The notes under the pieces were generated by a model, which was not told where the DNA came from, searched no databases, and saw nothing but the letters and a program-made list of their open reading frames with translations. From the NCBI GenBank assembly GCA_015493765.1, contig WGCQ01000071.1, positions 1 to 49,649 on the forward strand: a DNA stretch of 49,649 nt, read 5' to 3'. The translations under genes and the position numbers were made by a program. This document shows, piece after piece, positions 32,836 to 33,153 of the stretch; position 1 is the first letter of the stretch; each line of letters begins with the position of its first letter. The DNA comes from Deltaproteobacteria bacterium (GTDB lineage Bacteria > Myxococcota_A > UBA9042 > DTJE01 > S145-11).

Positions 32836-32890
32836 GACAGTCCGGAAAACCGGACTCCTTCGGACCACGTGTCCGGTTTTCCGGACTGTC
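32836..32890. repeat. 55-bp GTCCGG palindromic element, copy 1
   Basis: GACAGTCCGGAAAACCGGAC-15 nt-GTCCGGTTTTCCGGACTGTC, perfect 20-bp arms. Confidence 0.9.
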
Positions 32891-32989
32891 TGTATATATG
32901 TGCCGTCCCGCATAGGCATGGTAACATATTGATACCAAAACATTATTGCCGTATCCATGCGTTGTGGCACATTCATTGCATTGTGATGC

Positions 32990-33153
32990 GTTGTCCCGAT
33001 TGGGACGTTTGACAGGGCAACCGCGGTGGTCAAACAGCGCGCGCGGGGTTTAACCCCACAGACCTTTGGTGGTGGAACAGGTCTGTCCCCGGACCTGGAT
33101 TTGGCTCGGCGTGCCGGCGGGGGAGGGCCCATGCGTTAGCCCGGCCTGTGCCC
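32990..33153 (+). repeat. 164-bp conserved structured core, copy 1 (candidate ncRNA; strand assumed)
   Basis: GTTGTCCCGATTGGGACG...GGGCCCATGCGTTAGCCCGGCCTGTGCCC; about seven mismatches by eye against 41977-42140, no net length change. Confidence 0.8.

Follow-up and report, generated by a model that had tools for sequence, protein, structure and literature searches.

The 49,649-nucleotide stretch of contig WGCQ01000071.1 from a deltaproteobacterium (assembly GCA_015493765.1), referred to below as the window, carries two copies of a 325 bp intergenic unit which, in our view, quite probably represents a new family of small RNA (sRNA) genes controlled by sigma-54, an enhancer and integration host factor (IHF). 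In build the family would resemble GlmY or Qrr, amplified roughly tenfold with respect to either. An earlier reading of the window from its letters alone (the sequence-only reading) had described a two-copy composite element consisting of a palindrome and a structured core. Both cores were confirmed, at 32990–33153 and 41977–42140 (93–96% identical over the full length), as were the 55 bp palindrome and its recurrence as a counterpart near copy 2 (Table 1), and the order and spacing of core and palindrome are constant in all full copies, so that they do form one unit of about 320 bp. The number two did not stand, as the family is far larger. Besides the true number of copies, the sequence-only reading had overlooked the IHF-like site, the sigma-54 promoter and the control shared with radC and comM–recA; its suggestion of a novel noncoding RNA gains support from how the promoter is built, from the profile of conservation, from the counts of paired positions and from the lack of an Rfam match.

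Copy number and genomic setting

The host genome (3.57 Mb in 279 contigs) gave about 40 scored blastn matches to the core, 48 matches to an exact core motif and about 65 core matches with a covariance model, with E values down to 1e-69 across these searches; the possibility that there are no copies elsewhere is thus ruled out within this genome. Both flanks are present in 28 copies; some 18 others are anchored on the left and truncated on the right, and some 22 are anchored on the right and truncated on the left. Assembly contigs end at copies of the unit, and once duplicate hits are discarded and copies interrupted by a contig end are included, the total is probably 50–68. The firm minimum is given by the 46 distinct left-anchored copies that were read directly with their upstream half (47 were found, one of which was spurious). 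Every placed copy is intergenic, and "element" is an apt word if taken to mean a dispersed repeat. The convergent-gene setting described previously holds for the window, where a convergent gene is found at 33 bp from one copy and at 63 bp from the other. It is not the rule across the genome: about half of the downstream genes are convergent and about half co-directional.

Upstream region and promoter

Alignment of the full copies gives a single layout: a palindrome pair, an IHF-like site, the promoter TTTGGCACATNNNTTGCA, 13–15 nt of low conservation, a core of about 150 nt that opens with the GUCCC/GGGAC hairpin and closes with GGGC..GCCC, and a weakly conserved 3' segment of 11 nt, beyond which the sequences are unrelated. 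The consensus TTTGGCACATNNNTTGCA reads as a textbook sigma-54 −24/−12 promoter. The exact pattern TGGCAYN5TTGC is present in 41 of the 46 left-anchored copies, with the remainder about one change away, and it has 56 matches genome-wide compared with none for a reversed-pattern control. A YAAN4TTGATW motif, a candidate IHF site, lies between the upstream activating sequence (UAS) and the promoter in 41/46 copies, and at least four GTCCG/CGGAC half-sites are found in 44/46. The palindromic UAS is located some 80–130 bp upstream. In our interpretation the "palindrome" is a duplicated enhancer site which would lie outside the RNA and which is common to ordinary protein genes. In all 41 copies measured, the first hairpin follows the −12 C by 13, 14 or 15 nt; because this spacing is fixed, we predict that the RNA starts 1–4 nt before the 5' hairpin. 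The host genome has one sigma-54 gene and about 15 bacterial enhancer-binding proteins (bEBPs).

Conservation and dispersal of the copies

Median pairwise identity is highest in the core (0.95), followed by the promoter (0.82), the UAS (0.745) and the IHF-like site (0.69); it is 0.55–0.64 in the spacers, 0.455 in the discriminator between promoter and hairpin and 0.28–0.39 in the flanks. Even divergence would be expected of a repeat that had spread recently; the uneven profile instead suggests selection on both the promoter and the RNA, with gene conversion as an alternative cause for the core alone.

The unit has been copied around, as indicated by flank sequence shared among recent copies, by nearby arrays and by the existence of decayed copies, one of which lacks the core (contig 76) and another the UAS (contig 232). 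A recent subset has in common about 12 bp on the left (GTGATACAACAG) and about 20 bp on the right (GCCCTGCGTCCTGGCGCCCGCC). Arrays of the GGCCGTTGACC type occur near 10 of 28 left flanks compared with a background of 3.3%, and the left and right flanks of a copy share longer words than shuffled pairs do (0/200), for which arrays on both sides may be the explanation.

These features, together with the high copy number and the strictly intergenic placement, would fit a non-autonomous mobile repeat, similar to miniature inverted-repeat transposable elements (MITEs) or Correia elements, in which the IHF site and an outward promoter would be present by chance and conservation would result from recent spread and gene conversion. 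Correia repeat-enclosed elements and MITEs are dispersed short repeats that carry an IHF site and a promoter. In the copies examined, however, neither ends of a transposase type nor clean terminal inverted repeats nor consistent target duplications were seen, the excess of words shared between flanks being confounded by the arrays. Moreover, the divergence is not uniform (identities of 45–64% in spacers and discriminator against 70–95% in motifs and core), the motif spacing is fixed and the left-end module also stands at protein genes that have no core. We consider a mobile repeat of this kind quite unlikely.

We note that intergenic arrays of degenerate 6–13 bp words (CCGTTGACC, CCGTGGCC, CCGAGGCC) recur throughout the genome and adjoin many recent copies of the unit. 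In the window they are found at 32660–32830, 13500–14000, 1–500 and 48500–49500, and they are possibly uptake or hairpin repeats.

Structure of the RNA core

In an alignment of 43 copies fitted to the covariance model, 97.9% of cells are paired, compared with 27–54% when the partners are slid by 1–3 columns, and two-sided changes are seen at seven of 30 pairs (0/500 shuffles). Three of the helices previously listed, GUCCC/GGGAC, GUUUGAC/GUCAAAC and GGGG/CCCC, hold. For the fourth, CAGACC/GGUCUG, a better choice is the hairpin CAGGUCU-GUCCCC-GGACCUG, which overlaps it; here 100% of cells are paired, and one divergent copy carries compensatory changes. Two copies have GUCCU/AGGAC in place of GUCCC/GGGAC. 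The divergent copy, L131 on contig 17, is a whole unit, about 70% divergent, which scores 83.9 bits and precedes an ArsR-like gene (named by eye); in it UUUGAC/GUCAAA becomes UUUGUC/GAUAGA and CAGGUCU/GGACCUG becomes GUGGUCU/AGGCCAC. L131 could represent an ancestral form of the RNA or one of leader type. At this locus (3391–3660) a strong hairpin, GUCCACC/GGUGGAC, comes after the copy, and then the ArsR-like gene. A possible long-range helix would join CAGGRC, close to the 5' end, to the YCC segment on the 3' side; it is 86% paired, but 56 of 500 shuffles do equally well and we regard it as only suggestive. Neither of the unpaired segments, GGUGGUGG and GGCGGGGGAGGG, varies among the copies, L131 included.

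A coding fragment, the alternative named in the sequence-only reading, is unlikely, since divergent copies carry frameshifting indels of 1–3 nt and the open stretches are short. At 33119–33139 of the window, GGGGGAGGGCCC-ATG-CGT-TAG resembles a Shine–Dalgarno sequence with a two-codon open reading frame (ORF) and is invariant in the main family; as a mini-ORF (GGGGGAGGGCCC-ATGCGTTAG) it was set aside because the ATG is lost in L131.

The earlier idea of a HEARO/omega-RNA-like or trans-mobilized RNA found no support. A structured RNA with many dispersed copies and a sharp 3' conservation boundary could in principle be a HEARO/omega-RNA, a TnpB-reRNA or a group II intron-type mobile RNA that has lost its protein. 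A search against Rfam, HEARO included, gave no match either at the gathering threshold or at E ≤ 5, which is consistent with a novel RNA. No inserted ORF, IscB/TnpB included, lies between the ends of any of the 28 full-length copies, all of which have the same short length (the flanking genes being annotated in part), and the upstream half, palindrome included, reads as a regulated promoter outside the RNA. HEARO itself is refuted by the lack of both an Rfam match and an ORF-bearing copy, and we regard the wider class as extremely improbable.

Genes sharing the control module

The enhancer and −24/−12 module is also found upstream of protein genes that have no RNA core. In the window, radC is transcribed leftward, away from the UAS that it shares with copy 2, and has its own IHF-like site (Table 1). 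On contig 127 the module precedes comM (YifB/ComM, TIGR00368), which is followed by recA (TIGR02012). On contig 189 a module with a weaker −12 element precedes a 477-residue protein that belongs to no family and a lamin-tail MYXO-CTERM protein; this outer-membrane/lamin-tail pair is probably under the same activator module. The MYXO-CTERM match points to a host in Myxococcota or related to it. The locus (311–3011, minus strand) encodes the 477-residue protein as a secreted product with five relatives, all unnamed, and the two proteins are candidates for a DNA-uptake surface apparatus.

The genes comM, recA and radC are induced by the competence programmes of other bacteria, and for this reason we label the putative regulon "competence/DNA-repair-like". 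Since the enhancer–promoter module is common to radC and comM–recA, the RNA would belong to this regulon. The combination of UAS, IHF-like site and −24/−12 promoter would thus define a competence/DNA-repair-like response under sigma-54, of a kind that we found undescribed in the literature searched.

The control shared with recA, comM and radC, and the segment GGTGGTGG, which is invariant even in the copy that is about 70% divergent, could also point to a site acting at the DNA level, for example in recombination or in uptake during competence, with transcription being incidental. The segment GGTGGTGG also has a possible likeness to the Chi octamer known from some bacteria. A DNA site would, however, need neither a fixed spacing between promoter and hairpin nor helices that are kept through base changes, and we find this explanation very unlikely.

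Table 1. Predicted features of the two units and of radC in the window
Feature	Position	Strand	Remarks
Copy 1, UAS palindrome pair, enhancer-like	32836..32890	+	GTCCGG-N4-CCGGAC at 32840-32855 and 32871-32886
Copy 1, IHF-like site TAACATATTGATA	32922..32934	+	YAAN4TTGATW motif; alignment
Copy 1, putative sigma-54 −24/−12 promoter TGGCACATTCATTGC	32965..32979	+	TGGCAYN5TTGC pattern
Copy 1, structured sRNA core	32991..33142	+	Start ~32991 predicted from promoter spacing
Copy 1, first hairpin GUCCC/GGGAC	32993-33006	+	
Copy 1, last hairpin GGGC/GCCC	ends 33142	+	
Copy 1, 3' extension	33143..33153	+	Weakly conserved; consensus GNNNTGYGYCC
radC	41046..41702	-	RadC Pfam/NCBIfam matches; ATG start 41702 agrees with start of TIGR00608 match
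radC, putative divergent sigma-54 promoter TGGCACGTTGTTTGC	41717..41731	-	In detail TGGCACGTTGTTTGCC at 41731-41716
radC, IHF-like site AATCAATAACTTA	41758-41770	-	
UAS palindrome pair common to copy 2 (right) and radC (left)	41809..41867		
Copy 2, IHF-like site CAACCTATTGATT	41900..41912	+	Motif; alignment
Copy 2, sigma-54-like promoter TGGTATGCAAATTGC	41952..41966	+	One mismatch from pattern
Copy 2, structured sRNA core	41978..42129	+	Covariance model R1, 177.9 bits

Search for relatives

No homologue was found by blastn in 89 related genomes, and no convincing one by covariance model in 379 genomes of the phylum, where eight candidates per genome were scored, so that weak homologues could have been missed. 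Matches in five related genomes (17–23 bits) were taken as chance, since they have no sigma-54 promoter upstream and the best of them reads as coding. Phages and plasmids gave no homologue (one plasmid match at E = 0.3 is attributed to chance), nor did viral contigs, nor an exact 18-mer search of 85,488 species genomes, in which the single match was a chance one with no core around it. The UAS palindrome on its own is uninformative relative to background in the relatives. The host species is the sole member of its family among the genomes searched, and the RNA family may therefore be either lineage-specific or unsampled. We regard it as a new family of RNA that has no entry in Rfam.

Proposed mechanism and its assessment

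Copy number, anatomy, spacing, conservation pattern, the common control module and compatibility with the structure were observed directly; transcription, binding of the activator and of IHF and the physiology of the regulon are what we infer from them. In the mechanism that we propose, each unit would be a complete gene for a structured sRNA of about 150–165 nt. A bEBP would bind the paired GTCCGG-N4-CCGGAC sites, IHF would bend the DNA between these sites and the promoter, and RNA polymerase–sigma-54 would start at the −24/−12 promoter, a few nucleotides ahead of the GUCCC/GGGAC hairpin at the 5' end. With the same activator module driving radC and comM–recA, the RNA would be made alongside a competence/DNA-repair-like programme, and some fifty near-identical dispersed copies could give a large and rapid pulse of a single RNA. 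Dosage would be its most likely mode of action, with a protein or a single class of targets being titrated through the unpaired G-rich segments GGUGGUGG and GGCGGGGGAGGG; the invariance of these segments even in L131 speaks for dosage and against a multitude of targets, but the mode of action is a guess.

Several observations weigh against an sRNA family of this kind. The two-sided covariation comes mostly from L131, in an alignment that had been fitted to the structure; when L131 is left out and the alignment is not fitted, it is weak, with one two-sided pair only. Because L131 supplies most of these changes, we rate the covariation as good, though short of overwhelming. The folding energy of copy 1 is no better than that of shuffled sequences (single sequence, z = 0.44), as expected for a GC-rich sequence, and no terminator was found to mark the 3' end of the RNA. 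Duplex predictions of the RNA with the start regions of comM, recA, radC and the contig 189 genes were likewise no better than shuffled. The family is known from one genome only, and not every copy need be functional, as some are decayed or incomplete.

A more tentative proposal, which we consider unlikely, is that a selfish or domesticated sRNA gene captured the enhancer of a DNA-uptake/recombination system, so that it would be made only together with RecA, ComM and RadC, and that its copies were spread and homogenized by that machinery. If true, this would be an RNA element present in many copies, under regulation and linked to transformation. For either proposal, the question raised is why so much of one RNA would be needed when recA, comM and radC are switched on.

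Comparison with known systems

By architecture, the closest known system is GlmY of Enterobacteriaceae, in which QseF binds the UAS, IHF helps and sigma-54 drives the sRNA (PMC6075780). Like the unit described here, GlmY (controlled by QseF/GlrR) is a structured sRNA behind a −24/−12 promoter with multiple palindromic activator sites and IHF. It differs in being present as one copy (plus GlmZ), in its UAS (TGTN12ACA) and in its envelope role, whereas our unit has about 50 copies and radC/comM–recA control, and there is no sequence resemblance. By multiplicity, the closest are Qrr1–5 and FopS. The Qrr RNAs of Vibrio are multicopy similar sRNAs under a sigma-54 activator, LuxO, with a dosage logic (PMC2680268, PMC8043402), but they number 4–5, serve quorum sensing and do not match the unit, whether by sequence or in Rfam. 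FopS of Bacteroides comprises paralogous sRNAs dispersed in one genome (PMC11697453); these differ in having 12–15 copies of about 65–70 nt, with ordinary promoters and conservation across a family, compared with about 50 copies under putative sigma-54 control in one genome. As judged by sequence, the unit belongs to none of the three. The 12–15 copies of FopS are the highest number of sRNA paralogues in the literature searched, and some fifty sigma-54/enhancer-controlled copies would be of a different scale.

We know of no RNA family that combines about fifty copies with sigma-54/enhancer control. Sigma-54 and bEBP control of noncoding RNA in response to nucleic acid damage is found in the Y-RNA/RNA-repair operon under RtcR. 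The host has an RtcR-like CARF bEBP, but this protein falls below the RtcR cut-off and the unit has no Rfam match to Y-RNA. The bEBP in question lies on contig 28 (307–1911, minus strand) and has a CARF-type N-terminus. A response regulator-type sigma-54 activator is also encoded in the window at 25702–27117 (minus strand), 6 kb from copy 1.
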